Part shown: piece after piece, positions 25,741-63,374 of the stretch
How the letters are laid out: the number at the start of each line of letters is the position of its first letter
Numbering within the stretch: position 1 is the stretch's first letter
Source: Bolinopsis microptera
Taxonomy: Eukaryota > Ctenophora > Tentaculata > Lobata > Bolinopsidae
Length of the DNA: 64,000 nucleotides
Assembly (NCBI RefSeq): GCF_026151205.1
Contig: NC_087075.1
Location: forward strand, 2,392,359 to 2,456,358
Reading direction: 5' to 3'
Program-made: the position numbers and the translations under genes
The notes under the pieces: model-generated
What the model saw: the letters and a program-made list of their open reading frames with translations, nothing else
Database searches by the model: none
Told to the model about the DNA's origin: nothing

Positions 25741-27274
25741 TGAAAGGTTGAAGTAACTGTAAGTAACTGTAAGTAACTGTAAGTAACTGTAAGTAACTGT
25801 AAGTAACTGTAAGTAACTGTAAGTAACTGTGAGTAACTGTAAGTAACTGTAAGTAACTGTGAGTAACTGTAAGTAACTGTAAGTAACTGTAAGTAACTGT
25901 AAGTAACTGTAAGTAACTGTAAGTAACTGTAAGTAACTGTAAGTAACTGTAAGTAACTGTAAGTAACTGTAAGTAACTGTAAGTAACTGTAAGTAACTGT
26001 AAGTAACTGTAAGTAACTGTAAGTAACTGTAAGTAACTGTAAGTAACTGTAAGTAACTGTAAGTAACTGTAAGTAACTGTAAGTAACTGTAAGTAACTGT
26101 AAGTAACTGTAAGTAACTGTAAGTAACTGTAAGTAACTGTAAGTAACTGTAAGTAACTGTAAGTAACTTTAAGTAACTGTAAGTAACTGTAAGTAACTGT
26201 AAGTAACTGTAAGTAACTGTAAGTAACTGTGAGTAACTGTAAGTAACTGTAAGTAACTGTAAGTAACTGCAAGTAACTGTGAGTAACTGTAAGTAACTGT
26301 GAGTAACTGTAAGTAACTGTGAGTAACTGTAAGTAACTGTAAGTAACTGTAAGTAACTGTAAGTAACTGTGAGTAACTGTAAGTAACTGTAAGTAACTGT
26401 AAGTAACTGCAAGTAACTGTAAGTAACTGTAAGTAACTGTGAGTAACTGTAAGTAACTGCAAGTAACTGTAAGTAACTGCAAGTAACTGTAAGTAACTGT
26501 AAGTAACTGTAAGTAACTGTAAGTAACTGTAAGTAACTGTAAGTAACTGTAAGTAACTGTAAGTAACTGTAAGTAACTGTAAGTAACTGTAAGTAACTGT
26601 AAGTAACTGTAAGTAACTGTAAGTAACTGTAAGTAACTGTAAGTAACTGTAAGTAACTGTAAGTAACTGTAAGTAACTGTAAGTAACTGTGAGTAACTGT
26701 GAGTAACTGTAAGTAACTGTGAGTAACTGTAAGTAACTGTGAGTAACTGTAAGTAACTGTGAGTAACTGTAAGTAACTGTAAGTAACTGTAAGTAACTGT
26801 AAGTAACTGTAAGTAACTGTAAGTAACTGTGAGTAACTGTAAGTAACTGTAAGTAACTGTAAGTAACTGTGAGTAACTGTAAGTAACTGTAAGTAACTGT
26901 AAGTAACTGTAAGTAACTGTAAGTAACTGTAAGTAACTGTAAGTAACTGTAAGTAACTGTAAGTAACTGTAAGTAACTGCAAGTAACTGTAAGTAACTGT
27001 AAGTAACTGTAAGTAACTGTAAGTAACTGTAAGTAACTGTAAGTAACTGCAAGTAACTGTAAGTAACTGTAAGTAACTGTAAGTAACTGCAAGTAACTGT
27101 AAGTAACTGCAAGTAACTGTAAGTAACTGTAAGTAACTGCAAGTAACTGTAAGTAACTGTAAGTAACTGTAAGTAACTGTAAGTAACTGTAAGTAACTGT
27201 AAGTAACTGTAAGTAACTGTAAGTAACTGTAAGTAACTGTAAGTAACTGTAAGTAACTGTAAGTAACTGTAAGT
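25741..27274. repeat. 10-bp minisatellite (AAGTAACTGT)n, about 152 units
   Basis: Near-perfect 10-bp units with A/G and T/C variants. On the minus strand the unit reads ACTTACAG-T, which resembles a 3' splice site, and the array ends about 15 bp before a candidate exon (25736). Thirty bp make ten codons without stop, so very long frames arise by chance and are not genes. A shorter copy is at 49659-50020. Confidence 0.95.
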
Positions 27275-27282
27275 ATCTAAAC

Positions 27283-28769: not shown

Positions 28770-28835
28770 TGTCTTACGAAGAGTTGACGCTCCATGTCCA
28801 TGTGGCCAGCTGCCCACGTTATTTCCAGGAGGTAC
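28770..28835 (-). CDS. Exon A8: end of TGc core
   Basis: Acceptor TGTTACAG/GTACC. The first G completes the Trp codon of exon 7, then YLLEITWAAGHMDMERQ. The residue before ITW is Glu in both modules, where family members usually have the catalytic Asp. Two donors overlap at the 3' end, TTC/GTAAGA (exon end 28778, phase 0) and ACA/GTGAGT (exon end 28770, phase 2). Confidence 0.8.
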
Positions 28836-31800
28836 CTGTAACATTGAGGCAGTTATTTGTAGCATTAACAACTATCAGGACCTAGGCGGTACCTGTAACA
28901 TTGAGGCAGTTGTTTGTAGCATTAACAACTATCAGGACCTAGGAGCTACCTGTAACATTGAGGCAGTTGTTTGTAGCATTAACAACTATCAGGACCTAGG
29001 AGGTACCTGTAACATTGAGGCAGTTGTTTGTAGCATTAACAACTATCAGGACCTAGGAGGTACCTGTAACATTGAGGCAGTTGTTTGTAGCATTAACAAC
29101 TATCAGGACCTAGGAGGTACCTGTAACATTGAGGCAGTTGTTTGTAGCATTAACAACTATCAGGACCTAGGAGGTACCTGTAACATTGAGGCAGTTGTTT
29201 GTAGCATTAACAACTATCAGGACCTAGGAGGTACCTGTAACATTGAGGCAGTTGTTTGTAGCATTAACAACTATCAGGACCTAGGAGGTACCTGTAACAT
29301 TGAGGCAGTTGTTTGTAGCATTAACAACTATCAGGACCTAGGAGGTACCTGTAACATTGAGGCAGTTGTTTGTAGCATTAACAACTATCAGGACCTAGGA
29401 GGTACCTGTAACATTGAGGCAGTTGTTTGTAGCATTAACAACTATCAGGACCTAGGAGGTACCTGTAACATTGAGGCAGTTGTTTGTAGCATTAACAACT
29501 ATCAGGACCTAGGAGGTACCTGTAACATTGAGGCAGTTGTTTGTAGCATCAACAACTATCAGGACCTAGGAGGTACCTGTAACATTGAGGCAGTTGTTTG
29601 TAGCATCAACAACTATCAGGACCTAGGAGGTACCTGTAACATTGAGGCCGTTGTTTGTAGCATTAACAACTATCAGGACCTAGGAGGTACCTGTAACATT
29701 GAGGCAGTTGTTTGTAGCATTAACAACTATCAGGACCTAGGAGGTACCTGTAACATTGAGGCAGTTGTTTGTAGCATTAACAACTATCAGGACCTAGGAG
29801 GTACCTGTAACATTGAGGCAGTTGTTTGTAGCATTAACAACTATCAGGACCTAGGAGGTACCTGTAACATTGAGGCAGTTGTTTGTAGCATTAACAACTA
29901 TCAGGACCTAGGAGGTACCTGTAACATTGAGGCAGTTGTTTGTAGCATTAACAACTATCAGGACCTAATAGGTACCTATAACATTGAGGCAGTTGTTTGT
30001 AGCATTAACAACTATCAGGACCTAGGAGGTACCTGTAACATTGAGGCAGTTGTTTGTAGCATTAACAACTATCAGGACCTAGGAGGTACCAGTAACATTG
30101 AGGCAGTTGTTTGTAGCATTAACAACTATCAGGACCTAGGAGGTACCTGTAACATTGAGGCAGTTGTTTGTAGCATTAACAACTATCAGGACCTAGGAGG
30201 TATCTATAACATTGAGGCAGTTGTTTGTAGCATTAACAACTATCAGGACCTAGGAGGTACCTGTAACATTGAGGCAGTTGTTTGTAGCATTAACAACTAT
30301 CAGGACCTAGGAGCTACCTGTAACATTGAGGCAGTTGTTTGTAGCATTAACAACTATCAGGACCTAGGAGGTACCTGTAACATTGAGGCAGTTGTTTGTA
30401 GCATTAACAACTATCAGGACCTAGGAGGTACCTGTAACATTGAGGCAGTTGTTTGTAGCATTACCAACTATCAGGACCTAGGAGGTACCTGTAACATTGA
30501 GGCAGTTGTTTGTAGCATTAACAACTATCAGGTCCTAGGAGGTACCTGTAACATTGAGGCAGTTTATACCATTATAACAACTATCAGGACCTAGGAGGTA
30601 CCTGTAACATTGAGGCAGTTGTTTGTAGCATTAACAACTATCAGGACCTAGGAGGTACCTATAACATTGAGGCAGTTGTTTGTAGCATTAACAACTATCA
30701 GGATCTAGGAGGTACCTATAACATTGAGGCAGTTGTTTGTAGCATTAACAACTATCAGGACCTAGGAGGTACCTGTAACATTGAGGCCGTTGTTTGTAGC
30801 ATTAACAACTATCAGGACCTAGGAGGTACCTGTAACATTGAGGCAGTTGTTTGTAGCATTAACAACTATCAGGACCTAGGAGGTACCTGTAACATTGAGG
30901 CAGTTGTTTGTAGCATTAACAACTATCAGGACCTAGGAGGTACCTGTAACATTGAGGCAGTTGTTTGTAGCATTAACAACTATCAGGACCTAGGAGGTAC
31001 CTGTAACATTGAGGCAGTTGTTTGTAGCATTAACAACTATCAGGACCTAGGAGGTACCTGTAACATTGAGGCAGTTGTTTGTAGCATTAACAACTATCAG
31101 GTCCTAGGAGGTACCTGTAACATTGAGGCAGTTGTTTGTAGCATTAACAACTATCAGGACCTAGGAGGTACCTGTAACATTGAGGCAGTTGTTTGTAGCA
31201 TTAACAACTATCAGGACCTAGGAGGTACCTGTAACATTGAGGCAGTTGTTTGTAGCATTAACAACTATCAGGACCTAGGAGGTACCTGTAACATTGAGGC
31301 AGTTGTTTGTAGCATCAACAACTATCAGGACCTAGGAGGTACCTGTAACATTGAGGCAGTTGTTTGTAGCATCAACAACTATCAGGACCTAGGAGGTACC
31401 TGTAACATTGAGGCCGTTGTTTGTAGCATTAACAACTATCAGGACCTAGGAGGTAACTGTAACATTGAGGCAGTTGTTTGTAGCATTAACAACTATCAGG
31501 ACCTAGGAGGTACCTGTAACATTGAGGCAGTTGTTTGTAGCATTAACAACTATCAGGACCTAGGAGGTACCTGTAACATTGAGGCAGTTGTTTGTAGCAT
31601 TAACAACTATCAGGACCTAGGAGGTACCTGTAACATTGAGGCAGTTGTTTGTAGCATTAACAACTATCAGGACCTAATAGGTACCTATAACATTGAGGCA
31701 GTTGTTTGTAGCATTAACAACTATCAGGACCTAGGAGGTACCTGTAACATTGAGGCAGTTGTTTGTAGCATTAACAACTATCAGGACCTAGGAGGTACCT

Positions 31801-34800
31801 GTAACATTGAGGCAGTTGTTTGTAGCATTAACAACTATCAGGACCTAGGAGGTACCTGTAACATTGAGGCAGTTGTTTGTAGCATCAACAACTATCAGGA
31901 CCTAGGAGGTACCAGTAACATTGAGGCAGTTGTTTGTAGCATTAACAACTATCAGGACCTAGGAGGTACCTGTAACATTGAGGCAGTTGTTTGTAGCATT
32001 AACAACTATCAGGACCTAGGAGGTACCAGTAACATTGAGGCAGTTGTTTGTAGCATTAACAACTATCAGGACCTAGGAGGTACCTGTAACATTGAGGCAG
32101 TTGTTTGTAGCATTAACAACTATCAGGACCTAGGAGGTACCTATAACATTGAGGCAGTTGTTTGTAGCATTAACAACTATCAGGACCTAGGAGGTACCTG
32201 TAACATTGAGGCAGTTGTTTGTAGCATTAACAACTATCAGGACCTAGGAGCTACCTGTAACATTGAGGCAGTTGTTTGTAGCATTAACAACTATCAGGAC
32301 CTAGGAGGTACCTGTAACATTGAGGCAGTTGTTTGTAGCATTAACAACTATCAGGACCTAGGAGGTACCTGTAACATTGAGGCAGTTGTTTGTAGCATTA
32401 ACAACTATCAGGACCTAGGAGGTACCTGTAACATTGAGGCAGTTGTTTGTAGCATTAACAACTATCAGGTCCTAGGAGGTACCTGTAACATTGAGGCAGT
32501 TTATACCATTATAACAACTATCAGGACCTAGGAGGTACCTGTAACATTGAGGCAGTTGTTTGTAGCATTAACAACTATCAGGACCTAGGAGGTACCTGTA
32601 ACATTGAGGCAGTTGTTTGTAGCATTAACAACTATCAGGACCTAGGAGGTACCTGTAACATTGAGGCAGTTGTTTGTAGCATTAACAACTATCAGGAGCT
32701 AGGAGGTACCTGTAACATTGAGGCAGTTGTTTGTAGCATCAACAACTATCAAGACCTAGGAGGTACCTGTAACATTGAGGCAGTTGTTTGTAGCATTAAC
32801 AACTATCAGGACCTAGGAGGTACCTGTAACATTGAGGCAGTTGTTTGTAGCATTAACAACTATCAGGACCTAGGAGGTACCTGTAACATTGAGGCAGTTG
32901 TTTGTAGCATTAACAACTATCAGGACCTAGGAGGTACCTGTAACATTGAGGCAGTTGTTTGTAGCATTAACAACTATCGGGACCTAGGAGGTACCTGTAA
33001 CATTGAGGCAGTTGTTTGTAGCATTAACAACTATCAGGACCTAGGAGGTACCTGTAACATTGAGGCAGTTGTTTGTAGCATTAACAACTATCAGGACCTA
33101 GGAGGTACCTGTAACATTGAGGCAGTTGTTTGTAGCATTAACAACTATCAGGACCTAGGAGGTACCTGTAACATTGAGGCAGTTGTTTGTAGCATTACCA
33201 ACTATCAGGACCTAGGAGGTACCTGTAACATCGAGGCACTTGTTTGTAGCATTAACAACTATCAGGGCATCCCCATCTTAATCTAATGACACTCCTTCAC
33301 TCCTTTAATGTATTTATTAATAGTAGTGATATTAGGTGAGAGCGCTATTGTATTACTAGTATACTACTAGTTTAGTTATTCTAGTTTAGTATTACTACTA
33401 GTTCAGTTATTCTAGTTTAGTATTACTACTAGTTTAGACTTTAGAGCACTTACCAGTGACCGTTAGCTTTAAAAGCGTTCCAGGCGTGTCTCATTTGCTG
33501 GTCCAGTGGAAGGTTCTTGTTAAACTGGTGACCTTTTGAGTAACCACTAATCTGAAAACATGAAAACAGTAACAACAAAATGTAACATTACTACTACATA
33601 GCGTTACAAAATGTAACATAGCGTTACTTATATTAATAGGAGGAAGCCTAGAGCAGAAAGCTAAACAAAACGAAAAGTTGTATTTTCAAAAGTCTGTCCC
33701 ATTTTCAAATATGAAATTTTCTGAACACACATTTGACAGATTAGATGAAATTTTTGCCCAGAAACCAATTAGTCAGTTAATTGATGATGGTATGAAACCA
33801 AATTGAGGAATTGGGAGTCAAAATCCGGAATAAAATTGCAAAATCATATCGTCCCAATGTCTGTCCCATTTTCAGTTTTTGAAGATGAAATTTCCAGGAC
33901 CGAAATTTTACAAATTTGGCTAATTTTTTCAGCCGCAACCAATTAGTAAGTCAACTATAGTTGGCATATGACACGATTGAGGTACTGGAAGTTTGAGTTG
34001 GGTCGGAAGAAACCCACAGCAGAAAGCTTAACAAAACGAAAAGGTGTATTTTCAAAAGTCTGTCCCATTTTCAAATATGAAATTATCTGAACACAAATTT
34101 GACAGATTGGATGAAATTTTTGCCCAGAAACCAATTAGTCAGTTAATTGATGATGGTATGAAACCATATTGAGGTACTGGGAGTCAAAATCCCGAATAAT
34201 ATCGCAAAATCATATTGTCCCAATGTCTGTCCCATTTTCAGTTTTTGAAGATGAAATTTCCAGGACCGAAATTTTACAGTTTTTGCTGATTTTTCAGCCG
34301 CAACCAATTAGTAAGTCAGCTATAGGTGGCATATGACACGATTGAGGTGCTGGAAGTTTGATTTGGGTCGGAGGAAGCCCACAGCAGATAGCTTAACAAA
34401 ACGAAAAGTTTTTTCAAAAGTTTGTCCCATTTTCAAATATGAAATTTTCTGAACACTCATTTGACAGATTGGATGAAATTTTGGCCCAGAAACCATTTAG
34501 TAAGTTAATTGATGATAGTATGAAACCAAATTGAGGTATTGGGAGTCAAAATCCCGAATAAAATTGCAGAAACATATTGTCCCAATGTCTGTCCCATTTT
34601 CAGTTTTTGAAGATGAAATTTCCAGGACCGAAATTTTACAGTTTTGGCTGATTTTTTCAGCTGCAACCAATTAGTAAGTCAACTATAGGTGGCATATGAC
34701 ACGATTTAGCTGGAAAATTGCAAACTCATATTGTCTCAGATGATTACAGAGAAATTATACTCAAAATTATACTCAAAACTTTTCGGCCGGGTGGTTAAGT

Positions 34801-37800
34801 TGTTACACGATCGCCTCCCAAGCAGAAGGGCCGGATTCAAATCCGGTCGGATGCAAGTCGGCCAGTTATCAAACTGTGATTTGGTACAGCTTCGGCTGGT
34901 GATACACACTCTCTGGCTCGTAGGACTAACCCCCCTACAGCTAGTATAGTGCCTCGGCACAGAGTGGCTTAGGGTTAATGAAAAGGAGATAAGCACCTCA
35001 GGCCATCCCAACACCGGGAGTGACCTAGCCTTGTATCTTGTATCCCAACACCGGGAGTGACCTAACATTGTATCTTGTATCACCGGGAGTGACCTAGCCT
35101 TGTATCTTGTATCACCGGGAGTGACCTAGCCTTGTATCTTGTATCACCGGGAGTGACCTAGCCTTGTATCTTGTATCACCGGGAGTGACCTAGCCTTGTA
35201 TCTTGTATCACCGGGAGTGACCTAGCCTTGTACCTTGTATCACCGGGAGTGACCTAGCCTTGTATCTTGTATCACCGGGAGTGACCTAGCCTTGTATCTT
35301 GTATCACCGGGAGTGACCTAACCTTGTATCTTGTATCACCGGGAGCGACCTAGCCTTGTATCTTGTATCACCAGGAGTGACCTAGCCTTGTATCTTGTAT
35401 CACCGGGAGCGACCTAGCCTTGTATCTTGTATCACCGGGAGTGACCTAGCCTTGTACCTTGTATCACCAGGAGTGACCTAGCCTTGTACCTTGTATCACC
35501 AGGAGTGACCTAGCCTTGTATCTTGTATCACCGGGAGTGACCTAGCCTTGTATCTTGTATCACCGGGAGTGACCTAGCCTTGTACCTTGTATCACCAGGA
35601 GTGACCTAGCCTTGTACCTTGTATCACCAGGAGTGACCTAGCCTTGTATCTTGTATCACCGGGAGTGACCTAGCCTTGTATCTTGTATCACCGGGAGTGA
35701 CCTAGCCTTGTATCTTGTATCACCGGGAGTGACCTAACCTTGTATCTTGTATCACCGGGAGCGACCTAGCCTTGTATCTTGTATCACCAGGAGTGACCTA
35801 GCCTTGTATCTTGTATCACCGGGAGCGACCTAGCCTTGTATCTTGTATCACCGGGAGTGACCTAGCCTTGTACCTTGTATCACCAGGAGTGACCTAGCCT
35901 TGTACCTTGTATCACCAGGAGTGACCTAGCCTTGTATCTTGTATCACCGGGAGTGACCTAGCCTTGTATCTTGTATCACCGGGAGTGACCTAGCCTTGTA
36001 TCTTGTATCACCGGGAGTGACCTAGCCTTGTACCTTGTATCACCGGGAGCGACCTAGCCTTGTAGCTTGTATCACCGGGAGCGACCTAGCCTTGTAGCTT
36101 GTATCACCGGGAGTGACCTAGCCTTGTATCTTGTATCACCGGGAGTGACCTAGCCTTGTATCTTGTATCACCGGGAGTGACCTAGCCTTGTACCTTGTAT
36201 CACCAGGAGTGACCTAGCCTTGTATCTTGTATCACCGGGAGTGACCTAGCCTTGTATCTTGTATCACCGGGAGTGACCTAGCCTTGTACCTTGTATCACC
36301 GGGAGTGACCTAGCCTTGTATCTTGTATCACCGGGAGTGACCTAGCCTTGTACCTTGTATCACCGGGAGTGACCTAGCCTTGTACCTTGTATCACCGGGA
36401 GTGACCTAGCCTTGTATCTTGTATCACCGGGAGTGACCTAGCCTTGTACCTTGTATCACCGGGAGTGACCTAACATTGTATCTTGTATCACCGGGAGTGA
36501 CCTAGCCTTGTACCTTGTATCACCGGGAGTGACCTAGCTTGTATCTTGTATCCCAACACCGGGAGTGACCTAACATTATATCTTGTATCACCGGGAGTGA
36601 CCTAGCCTTGTATCTTGTATCCCAACACCGGGAGTGACCTAGCCTTGTATCTTGTATCACCGGGAGTGACCTAGCCTTGTATCTTGTATCACCGGGAGTG
36701 ACCTAGCCTTGTATCTTGTATCACCGGGAGTGACCTAGCCTTGTACCTTGTATCACCGGGAGTGACCTAGCCTTGTATCTTGTATCACCGGGAGCGACCT
36801 AGCCTTGTATCTTGTATCACCGGGAGTGACCTAGCCTTGTATCTTGTATCACCGGGAGTGACCTAGCCTTGTATCTTGTATCACCGGGAGTGACCTAGCC
36901 TTGTATCTTGTATCACCGGGAGTGACCTAGCCTTGTACCTTGTATCACCGGGAGTGACCTAGCCTTGTATCTTGTATCACCGGGAGCGACCTAGCCTTGT
37001 ATCTTGTATCACCGGGAGTGACCTAGCCTTGTATCTTGTATCACTGGGAGCGACCTAGCCTTGTATCTTGTATCACTGGGAGTGACCTAGCCTTGTATCT
37101 TGTATCACCGAGAGCGACCTAGCCTTGTATCTTGTATCACCGGGAGTGACCTAGCCTTGTATCTTGTATCACCGGGAGTGACCTAGCCTTGTATCTTGTA
37201 TCACCGGGAGTGACCTAGCCTTGTATCTTGTATCCCAACACCGGGAGTGACCTAGCCTTGTATCTTGTATCACCGGGAGTGACCTAGCCTTGTATCTTGT
37301 ATCACCGGGAGTGACCTAGCCTTGTATCTTGTATCACCGGGAGTGACCTAGCCTTGTATCTTGTATCACCGGGAGTGACCTAGCCATGTATCTTGTATCA
37401 CCGGGAGTGACCTAGCATTGTAGCTTGTATCACCGGGAGTGACCTAGCCTTGTAGCTTGTATCACCGGGAGTGACCTAGCCTTGTATCTTGTATCACCGG
37501 GAGTGACCTAGCCTTGTATCTTGTATCACCGGGAGTGACCTAGCCATGTATCTTGTATCACCGGGAGTGACCTAGCATTGTAGCTTGTATCACCGGGAGT
37601 GACCTAGCCTTGTAGCTTGTATCACCGGGAGTGACCTAGCCTTGTAGCTTGTATCACCGGGAGTGACCTAGCCTTGTATCTTGTATCACTTAAAGCCTGC
37701 TACTCACATATACAGCTTTAACCCCAGCAGCATCACACAGCGCCTTGAAGAGGTTAGCGTACCCTGCACACACACTGGTACGGTTAGCTAGGGTCCCCTC

Positions 37801-49658: not shown

Positions 49659-50020
49659 CTGTAAGTAACTGTAAGTAACTGTAAGTAACTGTGAGTAACT
49701 GTAAGTAACTGTAAGTAACTGTAAGTAACTGTAAGTAACTGTAAGTAACTGTGAGTAACTGTAAGTAACTGTAAGCAACTGTGAGTAACTGCAAGTAACT
49801 GTGAGTAACTGTGAGTAACTGTAAGTAACTGCAAGTAACTGTAAGTAACTGTGAGTAACTGTGAGTAACTGTAAGTAACTGCAAGTAACTGTAAGTAACT
49901 GTAAGTAACTGTAAGCAACTGTGAGTAACTGCAAGTAACTGTGAGTAACTGTGAGTAACTGTAAGTAACTGCAAGTAACTGTAAGTAACTGTAAGTAACT
50001 GTAAGTAACTGTAAGTAACT
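49659..50020. repeat. 10-bp minisatellite (AAGTAACTGT)n, about 36 units, module B
   Basis: Same unit as 25741-27274 but shorter and with more G and C variants. Minus-strand frames across it are chance. Confidence 0.93.
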
Positions 50021-52480: not shown

Positions 52481-52619
52481 ATTCTATAATCATTGTTTTT
52501 AATCTATTTACGATTTCGTATAATTTTTTGTGACAATGTAAACATCAACTGATCTTAACTTGCATCAACTACATTGTAAAATCCGGATTGGAGTATTATT
52601 TATGAGTCGCATTGTTGTA

Positions 52620-52928
52620 ATGTATTCTGGGTAAAAATTATCTTTATCCCGGTTGTTGCGACAAGTAAAAATGCTCTTATTAGGGAAAGGAGATTACTCG
52701 ACGTTTCAATGTAACTACATCGTATTCATGATCTCAAATTATTTGTTATATAGTAGTGTTGAAAGTATTAAAAGTATTAATACTTTCAACACTACTATAT
52801 AACAAATAATTTGAGATCATGAATACGATGTAGTTACATTGAAACGTCGAGTAATCTCCTTTCCCTAATAAGAGCATTTTTACTTGTCGCAACAACCGGG
52901 ATAAAGATAATTTTTACCCAGAATACAT
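52620..52928. repeat. 309-bp near-perfect palindrome
   Basis: Arms of about 150 bp (ATGTATTCTGGGTAAAAATT ... ) mirror one another around AAGTATTAAAAGTATTAATACTT. It would form one long hairpin. Flanks CATCAACTACATTGT (about 52563) and CATCAACTAAATTGT (about 52926) may be a target duplication of a hairpin-type MITE. Confidence 0.88.
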
Positions 52929-53857
52929 CAACTAAATTGTCATCATATAAAATTTTCCCGCCTTTCAAACCAAAATCAGATATAAATTATTCGCCCAAAA
53001 TTTTAAATTTCATATATTGTGACAGAATTAACCTCATTTCCCAATAACCAAGTGCCTGTATTAGCTAACTATTCAAAACAACATATTTTAGGGCTATGCT
53101 TGGTAGAGCAACCATAAAATAATGAGTTGAAAGGGTTTTTAGGACACCTCACAGTAGAATAGAGGTATGGTATCATGAGTGTGACAAAGTTACCCAAATA
53201 TTGCCTTGTAACCGTTCGATCCGTGCCCATTAACCAATGTTGTATCATAATTGTTAGATAGACCTAATTTACTATATTTCAGACCAAGGTATGATAATTA
53301 GACAACTGCAGTTAACTAAGTCACACAAAATGTGACATTTGAAACATTATAGTGCCTAACAACAATAGATTTTCTTTCTGAGCGGTGCATATGGGAGTAT
53401 GGGTTACGTGGCTAATGTTCAGAACTTCTGAACGTGCTAGGTTAAAAGATGTCAAAATTAAGCCACTATCGTCAAAAACGCTATTATTTTTGTTTACCAA
53501 TATCCTCAAACTCAAATGAACGTGTCCGTATATACTCATAGTGAAATATTAACAGTACCGCGTATATGCTTACACCGGATAATATATCAGATAAGATGAA
53601 TCAACCGTCCAACTTTTAAAAGTTAGACGGATCCAAATTGCAAATGAGAAAAGACTTTTCTATCACAATACAATGAACTATACTGTGATAGAAAGCACAA
53701 AAAGGAAAGAAATTAAATATTTGAATATCCGAGAATAGTTACATTATCATTCCTGGAAAAGACTCAAAGTCAGAGTACATGTAAGTAGAGTACTTGCACA
53801 GTAAACACTCCTGAGCAGTACTCCTCATGAGTCATGACTCAGTACAATATTACTCAC

Positions 53858-53923
53858 TGTCTTACGAAGAGTTGACGCTCCATGTCCATGTGGCCAGCTG
53901 CCCACGTTATTTCCAGGAGGTAC
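53858..53923 (-). CDS. Exon B8: end of TGc core
   Basis: Matches A8 in every base I compared, including YLLEITW, the acceptor GTTACAG/GTACC and the two overlapping donors. Confidence 0.8.
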
Positions 53924-56900
53924 CTGTAACATTGAGGCAGTTATTTTTAGCATTAACAACTATAAGGACCTAGGAGGTACCTGTAACATTGAGGCAGTTG
54001 TTTGTAGCATCAACAACTATCAGGACCTAGGAGGTACCTGTAACATTGAGGCAGTTGTTTGTAGCATTAACAACTATCAGGACCTAGGAGGTACCTGTAA
54101 CATTGAGGCAGTTGTTTGTAGCATTAACAACTATCAGGACCTAGGAGGTACCTGTAACATTGAGGCAGTTGTTTGTAGCATTAACAACTATCAGGACCTA
54201 GGAGGTACCTGTAACATTGAGGCAGTTGTTTGTAGCATTAACAACTATCAGGACCTAGGAGGTACCTGTAACATTGAGGCAGTTTATACCATTATAACAA
54301 CTATCAGGACCTAGGAGGTACCTGTAACATTGAGGCAGTTGTTTGTAGCATTAACAACTATCAGGACCTAGGAGGTACCTGTAACATTGAGGCAGTTGTT
54401 TGTAGCATTAACAACTATCAGGACCTAGGAGGTACCTGTAACATTGAGGCAGTTTATACCATTATAACAACTATCAGGACCTAGGAGGTACCTATAACAT
54501 TGAGGCAGTTGTTTGTAGCATTAACAACTATCAGGACCTAGGAGGTACCTGTAACATTGAGGCACTTGTTTGTAGCATCAACAACTATCAGGACCTAGGA
54601 GGTACCTGTAACATTGAGGCAGTTGTTTGTAGCATTAACAACTATCAGGACCTAGGAGGTACCTGTAACATTGAGGCAGTTGTTTGTAGCATCAACAACT
54701 ATCAGGACCTAGGAGGTACCTGTAACATCGAGGCAGTTTTTTGTAGCATTAACAACTATCAGGACCTAGGAGGTACCTGTAACATTGAGGCAGTTGTTTG
54801 TAGCATTAACAACTATCAGGACCTAGGAGGTACCTGTAACATTGAGGCAGTTGTTTGTAGCATTAACAACTATCAGGACCTAGGAGGTACCTGTAACATT
54901 GAGGCAGTTTATACCATTATAACAACTATCAGGACCTAGGAGGTAACTGTAACATTGAGGCAGTTGTTTGTAGCATTAACAACTATCAGGACCTAGGAGG
55001 TACCTGTAACATTGAGGCAGTTGTTTGTAGCATTAACAACTATCAGGAGCTAGGAGGTACCTGTAACATTGAGGCAGTTGTTTGTAGCATTAACAACTAT
55101 CAGGACCTAGGAGGTACCTGTAACATTGAGGCAGTTGTTTGTAGCATTAACAACTATCAGGACCTAGGAGGTACCTGTAACATTGAGGCAGTTGTTTGTA
55201 GCATTAACAACTATCAGGACCTAGGAGGTACCTGTAACATTGAGGCAGTTGTTTGTAGCATTAACAACTATCAGGACCTAGGAGGTACCTGTAACATTGA
55301 GGCAGTTGTTTGTAGCATTAACAACTATCAGGTCCTAGGAGGTACCTGTAACATTGAGGCAGTTGTTTGTAGCATTAACAACTATCAGGACCTAGGAGGT
55401 ACCTGTAACATTGAGGCAGTTGTTTGTAGCATTAACAACTATCAGGACCTAGGAGGTACCTGTAACATTGAGGCAGTTGTTTGTAGCATTAACAACTATC
55501 AGGTCCTAGGAGGTACCTGTAACATTGAGGCAGTTGTTTGTAGCATTAACAACTATCAGGACCTAGGAGGTACCTGTAACATTGAGGCAGTTGTTTGTAG
55601 CATTAACAACTATCAGGACCTAGGAGGTACCTGTAACATTGAGGCAGTTGTTTGTAGCATTAACAACTATCAGGACTTAGGAGGTACCTGTAACATTGAG
55701 GCAGTTGTTTGTAGCATTAACAACTATCAGGACTTAGGAGGTACCTGTAACATTGAGGCAGTTGTTTGTAGCATTAACAACTATCAGGACCTAGGAGGTA
55801 CCTGTAACATTGAGGCAGTTGTTTGTAGCATTAACAACTATCAGGTCCTAGGAGGTACCTGTAACATTGAGGCAGTTGTTTGTAGCATTAACAACTATCA
55901 GGAGCTAGGAGGTACCTGTAACATTGAGGCAGTTGTTTGTAGCATTAACAACTATCAGGACTTAGGAGGTACCTGTAACATTGAGGCAGTTGTTTGTAGC
56001 ATTAACAACTATCAGGACCTAGGAGGTACCTGTAACATTGAGGCAGTTGTTTGTAGCATTAACAACTATCAGGACTTAGGAGGTACCTGTAACATTGAGG
56101 CAGTTGTTTGTAGCATTAAAGCATTAACAACTATCAGGACCTAGGAGGTACCTGTAACATTGAGGCAGTTGTTTGTAGCATCAACAACTATCAGGACCTA
56201 GGAGGTACCTGTAACATTGAGGCAGTTGTTTGTAGCATCAACAACTATCAGGACCTAGGAGGTACCTGTAACATTGAGGCAGTTGTTTGTAGCATTAACA
56301 ACTATCAGGACCTAGGAGGTACCTGTAACATTGAGGCAGTTGTTTGTAGCATTAACAACTATCAGGACCTAGGAGGTACCTGTAACATTGATGCACTTGT
56401 TTGTAGCATTAACAACTATCAGGACATCCCCATCTTAATCTAATGACACTCCTTCACTCCTTTAATGTATTTATTAATAGTAGTGATATTAGGTGAGAGC
56501 GCTATGTACTATTGCATTACTTTTAGTATTACTATACTGCTACTTAAGTTATTCTAGTTTAGTATTCCTACTAGTTTAGACTTTAGAGCACTTACCAGTG
56601 ACCGTTAGCTTTAAAAGCGTTCCAGGCATGTCTCATTTGCTGGTCCAGTGGAAGGTTCTTGTTAAACTGGTGACCTTTTGAGTAACCACTAATCTGAAAA
56701 CATGAAGACAGTAACAACAAAATGTAACATTACTACTAATAGCGTTAAAAAATTTAACATAGCGTTACTTATATTAGTAGGAGGAAGCTTAGAGCAGAAA
56801 GCTTAACAAAACGAAAAGGTGTATTTTCAAAAGTCTGTCCCATTTTCAAATATGAAATTTTCTGAACACAAATTTGACAGATTGGATGAAATTTTTGCCC

Positions 56901-59900
56901 AGAAACCAATTAGTCAGTTAATTGATGATGGTAAGAAACCAAATTGAGGTACTGGGAGTCAAAATCCCGAATAATATTGCAAAATCATATTGTCCCAATG
57001 TCTGTCTCATTTTCAGTTTTTGAAGATGACATTTTCAGGACCGAAATTTTACAGTTTTTGCTGATTTTTCAGCCGCAACCAATTAGTAAGTCAGCTATAG
57101 GTGACATATGACACGATTGAGGTGCTGGAAGTTTGATTTGGGTCGGAGGAATTGGACACAGCAGAAAGTTTAACAAAACGAAAAGTTGTATTTTCGAAAG
57201 TTTGTCCCATTTTCAAATATGAAATTTTCTGAACACTTATTTGACAGATTGGATGAAATTTAGGCCCAGAAACCATTTAGTAAGTTAATTGATGATGGTA
57301 TGAAACCAAATTGAGGTATTGGGAGTCAAAATCCCGAATAATATTGCAAAATCATATTGTCCCGATGTCTGTTTCATTTTCAGTTTTTGAAGATGAAATT
57401 TTCAGGACCGAAATTTTACAGTTTTTGCTGATTTTTCAGCTGCAACCAATTAGTAAGTCAGCTATAGGTGGCATATGACACGATTGAGGTGCTGGAAGTT
57501 TGATTTGGGTCGGAGGAAGGACACAGCAGAAAGTTTAACAAAACGAAAAGTCTATTTTCGAAAGTTTGTCCCATTTTCAAATATGAAATTTTCTGAACAC
57601 TCATTTGACAGATTGGATGAAATTTTGGCCCAGAAACCATTTAGTAAGTTAATTGATGATAGTATGAAACCAAATTGAGGTATTGGGAGTCAAAATCCCG
57701 AATAAAATTGCAAAAACATATTGTCCCAATGTCTGTCCCATTTTCAGTTTTTGAAAATGAAATTTCCAGGACCGAAATTTTACAGTTTTGGCTGATTTTT
57801 TTCAGCTGCAACCAATTAGTAAGTTAACTATAGGTGGCATATGACACGATTTAGCTGGAAAATTGCAAACTCATATTGTCTCAGATGATTACAGAGAAAT
57901 TATACTCAAAATTATACTCAGAACTTTTCGGCCGGGTGGTTTAGTTGTTACACGTTCGCCTCCCAAGCAGAAGGGCCGGATTCAAATCCGGTCGGATGCA
58001 AGTCGGCCAGTTATCAAACTGTTATTTGGTACAGCTTCGGCTGGTGATACACACGGCCAGGTAGCGCAGTTGGTTAGAACGCCTGTCTTACAATCGTTAG
58101 GTTGCGAGTTCGAATCCCACTGACTGCCTGGTCGTGGGGTGAGCGTCGTCGACGTTTAGCTAAGGATCATGAGTGGTCTATGCAGCCCCCCGGTCTACTC
58201 AGCCGAATACTCGAGAAATCGGGTGTGAGGGTTAAATGAGGAGCTGCACATTGCAGCAAAGTCTCGGGCGAAGAAAGTATGGTACACACTACCTTAACCG
58301 TCACTGGCCAAAAAGATCCTTCGGCTTCCTGTAATTGGCTGGTTGCACTTGTGTAACAATGTGGCTGTTGGAATACACCGAAGTAAAATAAGTGTCTTGA
58401 TAGAAAAAACTCTCTGGCTCGTAGGACTAACCCCCCTACAGCTAGTATAGTGCCTCGGCACAGAGTGGCTTAGGGTTAATGAAAAGGAGTTAAGCACCTC
58501 TGGCCATCCCAACACCGGGAGTGACCTAGCCTTGTACCTTGTATCACCGGGAGTGACCTAGCCTTGTAGCTTGTATCACCGGGAGCGACCTAGCCTTGTA
58601 TCTTGTATCACCGGGAGTGACCTAGCCTTGTAGCTTGTATCACCGGGAGTGACCTAGCCTTGTAGCTTGTATCACCGGGAGTGACCTAGCCTTGTATCTT
58701 GTATCACCGGGAGTGACCTAGCCTTGTAGCTTGTATCACCGGGAGTGACCTAACATTGTATATTGTATCACCGGGAGTGACCTAGCCTTGTAGCTTGTAT
58801 CACCGGGAGTGACCTAGCCTTGTATCTTGTATCACCGGGAGCGACCTAGCCTTGTATCTTGTATCACCGGGAGTGACCTAGCCTTGTATCTTGTATCACC
58901 GGGAGTGACCTAGCCTTGTAGCTTGTATCACCGGGAGTGACCTAGCCTTGTATCTTGTATCACCGGGAGTGACCTAGCCTTGTATCTTGTATCACCGGGA
59001 GTGACCTAGCCTTGTATCTTGTATCACCGGGAGTGACCTAGCCTTGTATCTTGTATCACCGGGAGTGACCTAGCCTTGTATCTTGTATCACCGGGAGTGA
59101 CCTAGCCTTGTATCTTGTATCACCGGGAGTGACCTAGCCTTGTATCTTGTATCACCGGGAGTGACCTAGCCTTGTATCTTGTATCACCGGGAGTGACCTA
59201 GCCTTGTAGCTTGTATCACCGGGAGTGACCTAGCCTTGTATCTTGTATCACCGGGAGTGACCTAGCCTTGTAGCTTGTATCACCGGGAGTGACCTAGCCT
59301 TGTAGCTTGTATCACCGGGAGTGACCTAGCCTTGTATCTTGTATCACCGGGAGTGACCTAGCCTTGTATCTTGTATCACCGGGAGTGACCTAGCCTTGTA
59401 TCTTGTATCACCGGGAGTGACCTAGCCTTGTATCTTGTATCACCGGGAGTGACCTAGCCTTGTATCTTGTATCACCGGGAGTGACCTAGCCTTGTAGCTT
59501 GTATCACCGGGAGTGACCTAGCCTTGTATCTTGTATCACCGGGAGTGACCTAGCCTTGTATCTTGTATCACCGGGAGTGACCTAGCCTTGTATCTTGTAT
59601 CACCGGGAGTGACCTAGCCTTGTATCTTGTATCACCGGGAGTGACCTAGCCTTGTATCTTGTATCACCGGGAGTGACCTAGCCTTGTATCTTGTATCACC
59701 GGGAGTGACCTAGCCTTGTATCTTGTATCACCGGGAGTGACCTAGCCTTGTATCTTGTATCACCGGGAGTGACCTAGCCTTGTATCTTGTATCACCGGGA
59801 GTGACCTAGCCTTGTATCTTGTATCACCGGGAGTGACCTAGCCTTGTATCTTGTATCACCGGGAGTGACCTAGCCTTGTATCTTGTATCACCGGGAGTGA

Positions 59901-62900
59901 CCTAGCCTTGTAGCTTGTATCACCGGGAGTGACCTAGCCTTGTAGCTTGTATCACCGGGAGTGACCTAGCCTTGTATCTTGTATCACCGGGAGTGACCTA
60001 GCCTTGTATCTTGTATCACCGGGAGTGACCTAGCCTTGTATCTTGTATCACCGGGAGTGACCTAGCCTTGTATCTTGTATCACCGGGAGTGACCTAGCCT
60101 TGTATCTTGTATCACCGGGAGTGACCTAGCCTTGTAGCTTGTATCACCGGGAGTGACCTAGCCTTGTATCTTGTATCACCGGGAGTGACCTAGCCTTGTA
60201 TCTTGTATCACCGGGAGTGACCTAGCCTTGTATCTTGTATCACCGGGAGTGACCTAGCCTTGTATCTTGTATCACCGGGAGTGACCTAGCCTTGTATCTT
60301 GTATCACCGGGAGTGACCTAGCCTTGTATCTTGTATCACCGGGAGTGACCTAGCCTTGTATCTTGTATCACCGGGAGTGACCTAGCCTTGTATCTTGTAT
60401 CACCGGGAGTGACCTAGCCTTGTATCTTGTATCACCGGGAGTGACCTAGCCTTGTATCTTGTATCACCGGGAGTGACCTAGCCTTGTATCTTGTATCACC
60501 GGGAGTGACCTAGCCTTGTATCTTGTATCACCGGGAGTGACCTAGCCTTGTATCTTGTATCACCGGGAGTGACCTAGCCTTGTATCTTGTATCACCGGGA
60601 GTGACCTAGCCTTGTATCTTGTATCACCGGGAGTGACCTAGCCTTGTAGCTTGTATCACCGGGAGTGACCTAGCCTTGTATCTTGTATCACCGGGAGTGA
60701 CCTAGCCTTGTATCTTGTATCACCGGGAGTGACCTAGCCTTGTATCTTGTATCACCGGGAGTGACCTAGCCTTGTAGCTTGTATCACCGGGAGTGACCTA
60801 GCCTTGTAGCTTGTATCACCGGGAGTGACCTAGCCTTGTATCTTGTATCACCGGGAGTGACCTAGCCTTGTATCTTGTATCACCGGGAGTGACCTAGCCT
60901 TGTATCTTGTATCACCGGGAGTGACCTAGCCTTGTATCTTGTATCACCGGGAGTGACCTAGCCTTGTATCTTGTATCACCGGGAGTGACCTAGCCTTGTA
61001 GCTTGTATCACGTAAAAAGCCTGCTACTCACATAAACAGCTTTAACCCCAGCAGCATCACACAGCGCCTTGAAGAGGTTAGCATAGCCTGCACACACACT
61101 GGTACGGTTAGCTAGGGTACCCTCTGCCGTTACATCTGGGTACCGCATAGCTAGGTAGTCCGCTACTGCATAGCTTATATTCTCCGTTATCCATCTGGGA
61201 TGTGGTGCTTACATTAGTTGGTGTTGATTCATTTGGGATGTGGTGTTTACATTAGTTGATGTTGATTCATTTGGGATGTGGTTTTTACATTAGTTAGTGT
61301 TGATCCATCTGGGATGTGGTGTTTACATAAGTTGGTGTTGATCCATCTGGGATGTGGTGTTTACATTAGTTGGTGTTGATCCATCTGGGATGTGGTGTTT
61401 ACATTAGTTGGTGTTGATTCATCTGGGATGTGGTGTTTACATAAGTTGGTGTTGATCCATCTGGGATGTGGTGTTTACATTAGTTGGTGTTGATTCATTT
61501 GGGATGTGGTGTTTACATTAGTTGGTGTTGATTCATTTGGGATGTGGTGTTTACATTAGTTGGTGTTGATTCATTTGGGATGTGGTGCTTATGCATAAGT
61601 TGGTGTTGATTCATTTGGGATGTGGTGCTTACATTAGTTGGTGTTGATTCATTTGGGATGTGGTGTTTACATTAGTTGATGTTGATTTATTTGGGATGTG
61701 GTGTTTACATTAGTTGGCGTTGATTCATCTGGGATGTGGTGTTTACATTAGTTAGTGTTGATTCATTTGGGATGTGGTGTTTACATTAGTTGGTGTTGGT
61801 TCATTTGGGATGTGGTGCTTACATAAGTTGGTGTTGATTCATTTGGGATGTGGTGCTTACATTAGTTGGTGTTGATTCATTTGGGATGTGGTGTTTACAT
61901 TAGTTGGTGTTGATTCATTTGGGATGAGGTGTTTACATTAGTTGATGTTGATTTATTTGGGATGTGGTGTTTACATTAGTTGGCGTTGATTCATCTGGGA
62001 TGTGGTGTTTACATTAGTTAGTGTTGATTCATTTGGGATGTGGTGTTTACATTAGTTGGTGTTGATTCATTTGGGATGTGGTGTTTACATTAGTTGGTGT
62101 TGATTCATTTGGGATGAGGTGTTTACATTAGTTGGTGTTGATTTATTTGGGATGTGGTGTTTACATTAGTTGGCGTTGATTCATTTGGGATGTGGTGTTT
62201 ACATTAGTTGGTGTTGATTCATTTGGGATGTGGTGTTTACATTAGTTGGTGTTGATTGTGTTTATGAGGTTGGTTTGCGCAGGTAATGGATGATGTGAGT
62301 ATATGATTCACACTCAGTAGAATGGTCCGGATCACTCATGTCCTTTCTGACGATGTTAAAGTATATTACAATGAACATATTCACGAAGTAACCAAATACC
62401 TGTAGATAGCTCTGGCCTTGTGGCCTTCATCAGAGAACTTGCTGGTTAGGTACTGAGCTAACATCTGTAATGACTCTGTAGCCTCAGTAGGAGCGTTGAT
62501 TGCGTGCATATCTATATCCCTGGGATCATGTGTAGTCTTACTACTAGTGTTACTTGTAGGAACTGGGATCATGTGTAGTCTTACTACTAGTGTTACTTGT
62601 AGGAACTGGGATCATGTGTAGTCTTACTACTAGTGTTACTTGTAGGAACTGGACAGGACTGTCAACAACAAGACAAAAGGAAATCAGGCTTATTCTGCGT
62701 CTCACTAATGGCTCAGTTCGTACTAGTAGCACTATACTATATAGAAGCAGTAATAAATAATAATGAGAACTTACTGGAGCTCTTTGGGAGCGTTTTTTAT
62801 CTTCTCTGCCTTTTTCCTAGCGCGGTAGTTTCTCACAAGTCTCTGTATCAGTACCTTGGGTACAATAACAATAACAATAACGATAACAATAACAATAACA

Positions 62901-63374
62901 ATAACAATAACAATAACAATAACAATAACAATAACAATAACGATATCATTACCTGGGGACCTCAGGCTATTAATCACGGATCAGGAAACCGAATAAAACC
63001 AACACTTCGTTTTAATTTACCTCTTTTTGTTTGTTTATTGTTTTTCAGCTATTAAAATAAACCTGGATACTGTATATTAAAGTCACTTTTGTGACGGTAC
63101 ATTAGAACTAGGCTCCCTCTCTAGCTCTGATACGTGACAGGAATTAACGACTGTCACGTGTCAAGCCAGCACTGTCACGTGTCAAGCCAGCACTTACCAC
63201 AGCTCGGCACTTGTTAAGCTGTCACGTGTTAAGCCAACACTGTCACGTGTCAAGCCAGCACTTACCACAGCTCTGCTGAGTGTCCACATTGAGGCGGTGT
63301 TTTTCTCAACTTTGTAGAAAGCTACCATGTTGGGTCTCGCGAATACACCTCTGCCCAGCTCACACTTGAAATAC
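53858..63374 (-). CDS. Module B: duplicated exons 3-8 of the CAP-Gly/IQ/TGc gene
   Basis: Exons 63266-63374, 62775-62854, 62400-62519, 61032-61194, 56596-56693 and 53858-53923 correspond one to one with A3-A8, with the same lengths, phases and splice sites. Across 636 exon bases I count 12 differences from module A, 11 synonymous and one Lys/Gln. That pattern indicates selection on protein in both modules. Exons 1-2 must lie beyond 64000 behind the 76-bp array. Exon B8 can splice in phase to A1 (CA plus G, Gln), so A and B may be one gene with two modules; two tandem genes are the alternative. Catalytic Cys and His are kept, and Glu replaces Asp here too. Confidence 0.83.
53918..56425. repeat. 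57-bp minisatellite in intron 7 of module B, about 44 units
   Basis: Same unit as 28828-33265. It has three 56-bp TTATACCATTATAAC units (about 54284, 54456, 54909) and one unit with a 9-bp duplication (about 56116). Variant order differs from module A. Confidence 0.95.
56596..56693 (-). CDS. Exon B7: TGc histidine exon
   Basis: 98 bp with RHAWNAFKANGHW. One CAC/CAT synonymous difference from A7. Same acceptor and GTAAGT donor. Confidence 0.88.
56783..57860. repeat. ~366-bp tandem repeat, three units, module B
   Basis: Units begin at about 56793, 57160 and 57524, matching 33640-34715 with small differences. No coding potential. Confidence 0.88.
57926..58507 (+). mobile_element. tRNA-derived SINE (copy in module B), interrupted
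   Basis: Counterpart of 34783-35020, split at about 58054 by a second SINE and resuming at about 58408 with CTCTCTGGCTCG. Confidence 0.7.
58055..58407 (+). mobile_element. Second tRNA-derived SINE, nested, absent from module A
   Basis: Starts GGCCAGGTAGCGCAGTTGG (A box TAGCGCAGTTGG) with a B box GAGTTCGAATCCC about 45 bases later, then a ~270-bp body ending in AAAAAA. Anticodon-arm pairing is poor, so it is a SINE rather than a working tRNA. Module A keeps the empty site (about 34907-34912). Confidence 0.78.
58508..61012. repeat. 32-bp minisatellite in intron 6 of module B, about 78 units
   Basis: Same unit as 35020-37690 but far more uniform: few CCAGG or GAGCGACC variants, with GTAGCTTG the main variant. 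Uniformity suggests recent turnover. Confidence 0.95.
61032..61194 (-). CDS. Exon B6: TGc nucleophile exon
   Basis: 163 bp with WITENISYAVADYL and TSVCAGYANLF. Four base differences from A6, all third-position synonymous. Confidence 0.92.
61195..62250. repeat. 38-bp minisatellite in intron 5 of module B, about 28 units
   Basis: Like 37871-38320. Units near 61300-61490 read CCATCTGGGATGTGG on the plus strand, preserving the exact exon 6 acceptor CCCAG/ATGG; most others have changed to CCCAAATG. Confidence 0.95.
62400..62519 (-). CDS. Exon B5: N-terminal part of TGc domain
   Basis: 120 bp with DIDMHAINAPTEATESLQM. Differs from A5 at three bases: two synonymous and one Lys-to-Gln (62455). Confidence 0.88.
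62520..62648. repeat. Nascent 43-bp array at the exon 5 acceptor, three units
   Basis: The 43 bases ending in the acceptor (minus strand GACTACACATGATCCCAG) are present three times, against once in module A (38586-38628). Each unit ends with an AG acceptor; only the last joins in phase to the exon. Confidence 0.9.
62775..62854 (-). CDS. Exon B4: IQ-like motif exon
   Basis: 80 bp matching A4 in every base I compared, LIQRLVRNYRARKK, with the same donor and acceptor. Confidence 0.85.
62863..62945. repeat. (AACAAT)n expanded beside the B4 acceptor, about 14 units
   Basis: Hexamer run with three G-bearing variants. Module A has about five units at the same place. Confidence 0.92.
63150..63262. 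repeat. Short 21-bp array in intron 3 of module B
   Basis: About four CACGTG-bearing units, interrupted by a duplicated donor-side segment (CTTACCACAGCTC near 63191-63203), against about 18 units in module A. Confidence 0.85.
63266..63374 (-). CDS. Exon B3: C-terminal half of CAP-Gly
   Basis: 109 bp with YFKCELGRGVFARPNMV. Four synonymous differences from A3. Donor GTAAGT. Confidence 0.9.

Follow-up and report, generated by a model that had tools for sequence, protein, structure and literature searches.

Minisatellites at exon-intron boundaries

The closest described systems are the 'mirage' minisatellites of amphioxus, which are found in Adh3, in the globins BflGb6 and BflGb9, in troponin C and in PGBD5, and whose copy number is unstable between alleles or somatically while regular splicing is undisturbed (PMC3087553, PMC3902484). 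Other close systems are the gain of introns when AG/GT proto-splice sites are duplicated in tandem (Rogers and Venkatesh, as cited in PMC3087553), the internal tandem repeats that human segmentally duplicated genes carry at their exon-intron boundaries (PMC2812944) and CeRep25B, a C. elegans minisatellite that lies in introns close to alternative exons and for which a role in alternative splicing was proposed (PMC4039745).

The arrays considered here were found in a gene of the ctenophore Bolinopsis microptera, in a window (the whole stretch of DNA that was analysed) of 64,000 nucleotides. Their units span exon-intron boundaries, both 5' and 3' boundaries are affected and many units keep AG/GT. 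The amphioxus mirages are likewise described as tandem repeats across 5' or 3' boundaries with AG/GT kept in many units. Mirage units measure 10-160 bp there and have an unstable copy number; here, copy number differs among paralogues. Unlike the mirages, for which 6 and 3 copies are given in two BflGb6 haplotypes, one array of the present gene reaches ~1005 copies (22 kb), and seven introns of the gene, taken across its copies, are affected together with several unrelated genes. Furthermore, splicing was checked by RT-PCR in amphioxus, whereas here it is predicted from the DNA. A minisatellite with multiple splice donor sites was reportedly described in a human interferon-induced transcript by Turri et al. 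in 1995, and is like the present arrays in combining a minisatellite with splice donors.

In the same way as in proto-splice-site intron gain, splice-site text is duplicated in tandem inside genes, but the arrays appear to grow in pre-existing introns (a difference weakly tested, at intron 2 only). The human repeats are likewise minisatellite expansions in recent gene duplicates, some of them at boundaries; they alter exons there or may give rise to new introns, while exons are unchanged here. CeRep25B is also an intronic minisatellite tied to splicing, but is not known to have junction-crossing units. This kind of repeat is known but little studied, and the first-pass annotation, which knew of no description on this scale in one gene, had missed the amphioxus reports. 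What is new is probably the ctenophore host lineage and the scale; a literature search on intronic minisatellites in ctenophores found no relevant description.

The gene and its copies

The gene encodes CAP-Gly and transglutaminase-like domains and is present in two direct copies, A and B, both on the minus strand, and in a third copy, C, 3.8 Mb distant from them. The predicted protein matches CAP_GLY (PF01302, E 8.9e-18) and Transglut_core (PF01841, E 9e-17), and, having the latter domain, it may be a transglutaminase-like protein of the kyphoscoliosis-peptidase type. Its predicted exons in the window are the following.

49041..49106, minus strand: A exon 1, 3' part (CAP-Gly start), donor at 49040; from frame continuity and the CAP_GLY match
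48634..48732, minus strand: A exon 2 (CAP-Gly)
39468..39576, minus strand: A exon 3 (CAP-Gly end)
38757..38836, minus strand: A exon 4
38466..38585, minus strand: A exon 5, with a single 43-bp unit at the acceptor
37708..37870, minus strand: A exon 6 (transglutaminase-like core)
33454..33551, minus strand: A exon 7
28770..28835, minus strand: A exon 8
63266..63374, minus strand: B exon 3
62775..62854, minus strand: B exon 4
62400..62519, minus strand: B exon 5
61032..61194, minus strand: B exon 6
56596..56693, minus strand: B exon 7
53858..53923, minus strand: B exon 8

Outside the window (L001, L002, L006) are exons 0a to 2 of B, its 22-, 32- and 36-bp arrays and the greater part of its 76-bp array. 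A single reading frame runs across the predicted exon borders. Over exons 2 to 8 and the final 30 bases of exon 1 (the remainder of exon 1 being excluded from the count), 16 changes separate A from B, of which 13 are synonymous and 3 nonsynonymous (P=6.7e-7). The predicted borders are supported by this one frame and by the mostly synonymous changes, and the synonymous excess lends indirect support to the view that regular splicing of the array-bearing gene would be undisturbed. Exons 0a and 0b were predicted from frame and splice signals only and, when joined, matched no Pfam family. Copy A has indels in exon 0b and, in the stretch of exon 1 outside the selection count, two more that offset each other, while exon 5 of copy C is 5 bp short; A and C may therefore not make full proteins.

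Arrays at the junctions of the gene

The arrays located in the window are listed below.

48869..49067, minus strand: A intron 1, 31-bp array x6.3, takes in 27 exonic bases and the donor
39722..48631, minus strand: A intron 2, 76-bp array x118, begins 2 bases past the donor
39595..39725, minus strand: A intron 2, additional, incomplete exon 3 acceptor region, separated from exon 3 by a 9/18-bp array
39084..39464, minus strand: A intron 3, 21-bp array x18, begins 3 bases past the donor
37868..38323, minus strand: A intron 5, 38-bp array x12, takes in the acceptor and 3 exonic bases
35049..37689, minus strand: A intron 6, 32-bp array x82, 18 bases past the donor
33639..34706, minus strand: A intron 6, 366-bp array x2.9
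33357..33437, minus strand: A intron 7, 31-bp array x2.6, 16 bases past the donor
28827..33266, minus strand: A intron 7, 57-bp array x78, takes in the acceptor and 9 bases of exon 8
62520..62652, minus strand: B intron 4, 43-bp array x3.1, its end coinciding with the exon 5 acceptor
61192..62257, minus strand: B intron 5, 38-bp array x28
58513..61011, minus strand: B intron 6, 32-bp array x78
53915..56425, minus strand: B intron 7, 57-bp array x44, takes in the acceptor and 9 exonic bases

As the first-pass annotation had proposed, arrays border the exons in nearly every intron: six of the seven introns of A hold a TRF array of period at least 10, and in five (introns 1, 2, 3, 5 and 7) an array lies within 10 bp of a junction or across it. 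Intron 4, with an array in B and C only, is a sixth intron with a junction array, and the 32-bp array of intron 6 begins 18-20 bp from the donor. Junction arrays of the gene (within 10 bp or across) are donor-side in four cases and acceptor-side in three. The 31/32-, 22-, 57- and 38-bp arrays extend 3-27 bases into exons, and AG/GT text stands at the junction in several units (57, 36, 45 and 31 bp).

The individual units picked out in the first-pass annotation were recovered. The 57-bp unit includes the acceptor and 9 bases of exon 8 in both A (78 copies) and B (44), and the 38-bp unit takes in the acceptor and the first 3 bases of exon 6 (12 copies in A, 28 in B). The 76-bp array begins 2 (A) or 0 (B) bases past the exon 2 donor and the 21-bp array 3 bases past the exon 3 donor in both copies, while direct reading of the sequence confirms that the exon 3 acceptor region has been duplicated once in A and twice in B. 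The 43-bp unit at the exon 5 acceptor is present once in A and three times in B, as had been noted, and 32 times in C. The ~30-bp unit made of the end of exon 1 and the donor also exists (31 bp x6.3 in A, 32 bp x8.1 in B), but its TRF periodicity begins 27, not ~23, bases inside the exon. A 22-bp unit that carries a perfect donor is repeated ~1005 times over 22 kb in the upstream part of B. Array copy number varies widely among A, B and C, whose arrays are copies of one another and therefore not independent.

Interior units retain the splice site in most arrays, not in all. In the 22-bp array, 996/1004 interior donors are intact, with GTAAGT in 983/1003 units and TTACAG in 938/1003; the splice-site columns of this unit are no better conserved than many of its other columns. 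Interior acceptors are intact in 74/77 (A) and 43/43 (B) units of the 57-bp array and in 30/30 units of the 43-bp array of C; interior donors are intact in 23/23 units of one kinesin locus (L031), and another (L036) shows 50 donors in ~52 units. The 38-bp array keeps AG in 0/11 interior units of A and 7/27 of B (12/133 over A, B and C), AA replacing AG in 11/11 interior units of A and in 87/93 exactly matched units of C. The 21-bp array and the first array of L022 have not kept the splice site either.

Arrays in other genes and their positions

Junction arrays are not special to the CAP-Gly/transglutaminase-like gene, and unrelated genes have them too. Chaperonin, myosin and kinesin genes served as controls, in 32 clusters (164.6 kb) hand-picked from search matches for closely spaced exon matches; 34 of 131 neighbouring exon pairs were dropped (29 because an exon was missing or the overlap was large, 5 because no splice pair was acceptable), and the first exon of L020 was entered shortened. 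The 97 introns hold 45 arrays, nine of them within 10 bp of a junction or across it (7 donor-side, 2 acceptor-side), and 66 introns have no array of period at least 10. Arrays of shorter period were left uncounted, among them one of 8 bp x240 in L016 that extends to an exon match. Five arrays, all in kinesin genes, reach at least 5 bases into the exon, by 11-30 bases. Another junction array, in a peptide N-glycanase gene (L007), was found before the control design and kept out of the statistics. Tandem repeats are plentiful in this genome. Neither COX1 (PF00115) nor the nuclear-receptor domain zf-C4 (PF00105), which ctenophores are not known to have, had a match in it; for zf-C4 the negative is weak, since the control genomes gave no match either.

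The positions were compared with a spanning-neutral null, in which the founding duplication may fall anywhere over the short intron and across its junctions. Arrays within 10 bp of a junction number 7/12 in this gene (4.6 expected, P=0.11), 9/45 in the controls (6.6 expected, P=0.18) and 16/57 when pooled (11.2 expected, P=0.055, a narrow fit). These counts fit the null and do not bear out the first-pass wording that the arrays are seeded at splice junctions. The pooled count at 0 bp or across is 11/57 (8.4 expected, P=0.19). Within 20 bp, one of three cut-offs tried, the pooled 23/57 exceeds the 14.1 expected 1.6-fold (P=0.0015), with 13/45 in the controls (P=0.046) and 10/12 in this gene (P=0.004). 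For the pooled set, a null that allows duplications in intron interiors only is rejected (0.39 expected at 0 bp, 4.3 within 10 bp). With the chaperonin and myosin genes alone (2/14 within 10 bp, 0 across, P=0.20) it is not rejected, so that the control evidence for junction crossing is that of the kinesin genes. Per single word, GTAAGT forms tandem triplets 2-5 times as often as three control words do, which may reflect preferred founding at donors; for TTTCAG triplets there is no clear enrichment (429 per single word versus 219, other control words 466-1055).

A junction-seeking process is not required by these positions, and the excess within 20 bp leaves one possible. The idea of a single process that repeatedly duplicates splice junctions holds in that repeated duplication is real and extends to unrelated genes; its junction-seeking part is not needed.

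Origin of the arrays

The arrays are probably mirage-type minisatellites, born of ordinary tandem duplication that may strike anywhere, tolerated at junctions and then expanded. An ordinary replication or repair error would yield a short tandem duplication, with units of ~10-76 bp, anywhere along the gene. If it fell in an intron or across a junction, the exon-proximal splice site would still give a normal mRNA, the other copies being intron, and the duplication would thus be tolerated; inside an exon, it would be eliminated by selection. The unit could then grow or shrink as any minisatellite does, here from 1-2 to ~1005 copies. We infer that tolerance comes from exon-proximal site choice (exon definition) and that the expansion is neutral.

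The excess within 20 bp, the donor-side share of junction arrays (7/9 in the controls, 4/7 in this gene) and the GTAAGT triplets would also be expected if splicing- or transcription-coupled DNA damage (e.g., R-loops or pausing at 5' splice sites) founded duplications preferentially at junctions. This is unlikely, considering that there is no significant excess over the spanning-neutral null at 0 or 10 bp, that the 20-bp result comes from one of three cut-offs, that the donor bias is equally explicable by donor duplications being better tolerated than acceptor ones, and that TTTCAG triplets lack a clear enrichment. It is distinctly unlikely that duplications are preferentially founded at active 5' splice sites, in a transcription- or splicing-coupled manner, with the resulting ladders read correctly only through a strict innermost-pair (exon definition) rule.

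The AG/GT junctions of several units recall intron birth by tandem duplication of an AG/GT-containing exon stretch, a route that has been published (PMC3087553, PMC3443670, PMC4974935), but the arrays are very unlikely to mark introns newly made in this way. An array-free intron seemingly occupies the place of intron 2 in the second CAP-Gly domain of another CAP-Gly gene (L009; the adjoining pieces match with E 2e-4 and, weakly, E 1.3), the first CAP-Gly domain of which has no intron there; most control introns have no array, and where both ends of an intron were read (L007; introns 5 and 7), the donor side and the acceptor side have no common unit. That intact copies are kept as functional ladders, helping long introns to be recognised or recursively spliced, would suit the GTAAGT and TTACAG counts of the 22-bp array and the mostly intact interior sites of several arrays; it is made highly improbable by the unexceptional conservation of the splice-site columns, by the loss of AG from the 38-bp units of A and C and by the wide copy-number variation. 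Dispersed mobile or satellite repeats, inserted near exons by chance in a genome so rich in tandem repeats, are the least credible source: the units contain bases of the adjoining exon, and this origin was rejected because the genome matches of the array units in a candidate search are, among the matches listed, all in A, B or C.

Under tolerated duplication followed by neutral expansion, the copy numbers seen, 2 (L035, L039), 6, 25, 52 and ~1005, form a series that illustrates how an intron can expand from its own junctions. No clear microhomology was seen at L035 and L039, the two nascent duplications, where it was judged solely by array length. The arrays are also natural experiments on how a single splice site is chosen from many that are almost identical, and clean splicing at the RNA level would imply that the spliceosome must tell such sites apart by position or exon context. 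For instance, a putative exon of 75 bp in the upstream part of B is flanked by ~27 similar acceptors on one side and the ~1005 near-identical donors on the other, and would be set by the innermost pair.

Gene copies and exon borders

In this eukaryotic genome of 264.65 Mb, gene copies A and B are in direct orientation, both on the minus strand of the window, and the third, C, sits on the opposite strand at a distance of 3.8 Mb. Exons 1-8 of A join at GT-AG borders into a single unbroken frame of 266 aa with Pfam matches to CAP-Gly and transglutaminase-like core domains. Over the stretch from the final 30 bases of exon 1 through exon 8, 16 sites differ between A and B, with 13 synonymous changes and 3 nonsynonymous ones (P=6.7e-7); as these changes are mostly synonymous (13/16), the exon borders are backed independently of RNA. 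Exons 0a (75 bp, upstream in B, loci L001, L002 and L006) and 0b are putative exons predicted from frame and splice signals, and joined together they match no Pfam family. Exon 0b of A carries indels, the upstream part of A exon 1 has two that offset each other, exon 5 of C lacks 5 bp, and exons 1, 2 and 8 of C are without match among the matches listed. Judged from sequence, the indels in A and the losses in C would count against full function of every copy.

Arrays at junctions

As proposed in the first-pass annotation, units of about 30, 57 and 38 bp contain a junction, and the 76- and 21-bp arrays begin near donors.

Arrays at junctions in A and B (minus strand; intron, unit and copies, position)
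A intron 1, 31 bp x6.3, begins 27 bases inside exon 1
A intron 2, 76 bp x118, begins 2 bases past the donor
A intron 3, 21 bp x18, begins 3 bases past the donor
A intron 5, 38 bp x12, overlaps exon 6 by 3 bases
A intron 6, 32 bp x83, begins 18 bases past the donor
A intron 7, 57 bp x78, overlaps exon 8 by 9 bases
B intron 4, 43 bp x3.1, end coincides exactly with the acceptor

The 43-bp unit at the exon 5 acceptor is indeed found once in A and three times in B, and reaches 32 copies in C. Copies in A, B and C number 12, 28 and 96 for the 38-bp unit and 78, 44 and 4.4 for the 57-bp unit. A 22-bp array 3' of B exon 0a (about 1005 units, 22.1 kb, unit containing GTAAGTG) starts 12 bases inside this exon, and the unit of a 36-bp array 5' of the same exon includes the acceptor plus the first 12 exon bases.

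Many interior units retain an intact splice site: GT/AG in 996/1004 units of the 22-bp array, 74/77 (A) and 43/43 (B) for the 57-bp array, 2/2 (B) and 30/30 (C) for the 43-bp array, 3/3 and 6/6 for the 31/32-bp arrays. Among the exceptions is the 38-bp array, with AG in only 0/11 (A), 7/27 (B) and 5/95 (C). For the 76-bp array, GT was found in 64/64 interior units of B, these donors being weaker than the real one, and in 2/101 of A, with the scan aligned one base off. Only 2 interior units of the 21-bp array of intron 3 were matched by the scan, both without GT. In the 36-bp array, whose indels misled the ungapped scan (2/26), a recount found 28 acceptor-like matches over some 27 units.

Unrelated genes

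Controls came from the chaperonin, myosin and kinesin families, as 32 clusters of exon matches chosen for closely spaced exons before any look at arrays; frame and splice scores resolved 97/131 neighbouring exon pairs. These 97 introns hold 45 arrays of period at least 10, spread over 31 introns, 9/45 crossing a junction or lying no more than 10 bp from one. All five that extend at least 5 bases into an exon belong to kinesin genes; in chaperonin and myosin genes, 2/14 arrays are within 10 bp of a junction and 0/14 across.

Control arrays extending at least 5 bases into an exon (kinesin genes)
L031, 35 bp x25
L036, 33 bp x52
L039, 38 bp x2
L039, second array, TRF period 109 bp, real unit seemingly shorter
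L035, 53 bp x2

Intact interior sites number 23/23 in L031, 1/1 in L035, and 5/5 (acceptor array) and 1/1 (donor array) in L039; the recount for L036 gave 50 donors in about 52 units, in place of 15/49 by the ungapped scan. In control locus L022, 19/20 interior units of a 13-bp array have GT, as weaker donors like those of the 76-bp array in B, and the ungapped scan matched zero interior units of a 21-bp array. The peptide N-glycanase gene L007 (E 1.7e-23), left out of the control counts, has a 45-bp array whose unit contains the acceptor and first exon bases (4/4 interior sites intact).

Seeding or tolerance

With each array collapsed to one unit, the introns of A measure 167-248 bp (intron 6 alone 793), so that a 20-76-bp unit will often touch a junction by chance. 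A spanning-neutral null was used, in which founding segments fall anywhere, junction crossing allowed; for the focal gene 12 arrays were scored, ten from A and two from B (22 and 43 bp).

Arrays near junctions under the spanning-neutral null (observed vs expected)
Pooled, up to 0 bp: 11/57 vs 8.4, P=0.19
Pooled, up to 10 bp: 16/57 vs 11.2, P=0.055
Pooled, up to 20 bp: 23/57 vs 14.1, P=0.0015
Focal gene, up to 10 bp: 7/12 vs 4.6, P=0.11
Focal gene, up to 20 bp: 10/12 vs 5.5, P=0.004
Controls, up to 10 bp: 9/45 vs 6.6, P=0.18
Controls, up to 20 bp: 13/45 vs 8.5, P=0.046

If arrays are confined within introns, the pooled expectations at 0, 10 and 20 bp are 0.39, 4.3 and 8.1; on their own, the chaperonin and myosin genes do not reject this interior-only null (10 bp, P=0.20). 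From these position statistics, tolerance of junction-crossing duplications accounts for most of the array placement. Seeding of arrays at junctions is not required, since placement up to 10 bp fits the neutral null (narrowly so for the pooled set); the mild excess up to 20 bp may reflect a slight junction preference.

A tandem duplication across a junction would leave the exon-proximal splice site adjoining the full exon. If the spliceosome chose this site, the mRNA would be unchanged and the remaining copies would be intron, and expansion from 2 to about 1005 copies would be ordinary minisatellite turnover. If the next interior donor were taken instead, unit length implies an addition of 22, 31, 35 or 38 bases, a frameshift in each case. 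Better tolerance of donor duplications would give the donor-side bias of the controls, where 7/9 arrays within 10 bp or across are on the donor side.

Tandem triplets number 16,411 for GTAAGT vs 3,055 (reversed word), 5,774 (GTAGAT) and 4,116 (GTAGAT reversed), and 5,408 for TTTCAG vs 1,300 reversed. Per single-word frequency, taken from 192 kb of array-masked DNA, these become 2236, 466, 1018 and 1055, and 429 and 219. Donor word triplets are enriched 2-5 fold and acceptor word enrichment is not clear, the counts tallying units instead of arrays (the 22-bp array alone gives about 1000).

Known relatives

Repeats with junction-crossing units are already a known class, since two papers describe amphioxus "mirages", in globin genes, with Adh3 cited as well (PMC3087553), and in PGBD5 and troponin C (PMC3902484). 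The earlier statement that no description on this scale in one gene was known does not hold for the class itself; the scale is probably new. Mirages of Adh and troponin C are said there to generate no aberrant mRNAs (PMC3902484). In C. elegans an intronic minisatellite is linked to alternative splicing, but junction-crossing units are not among the features described in the available text (PMC4039745). Outside chordates, no report of junction-crossing arrays was found in the open-licence literature searched.

Neighbouring features

Window 5080-9696: Copia-type open frame, 1538 aa, matching integrase and reverse transcriptase
Window 10570-11496: fragment of RVT_1 reverse transcriptase
Window 18086-21259: single-frame predicted receptor, 1057 aa, with LDL-receptor class A repeats and a 7TM domain
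Window 21413-21920: 12-bp array x42, just past the receptor frame
Window 22500-24800: stretch of about 1 kb in two direct copies adjoining the gene pair
Window 25751-27275 and 49659-50020: 10-bp CTGTAAGTAA array 3' of exon 8 in each gene copy (152 units and 36 units, respectively)
Window 49530-49659: 76-bp unit fragment directly abutting the 10-bp CTGTAAGTAA array, likely the A-B tandem duplication breakpoint
Window 50969-53530: insertion of about 2.5 kb with inverted ends, in B and absent from A, probably a later mobile-element insertion
Window 58055-58410 and L005 (copy C) about 200-620: tRNA-like SINE in intron 6 of B and C, not A
L003 957-6983, upstream of copy C: 48-bp array x126, unit with TTGCAG joined to GTGCTC

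The SINE common to B and C serves as a marker of duplication order among the gene copies. In the 10-bp array, CTGTAAGTAA is donor-like on the plus strand and TTACTTACAG acceptor-like on the minus strand.
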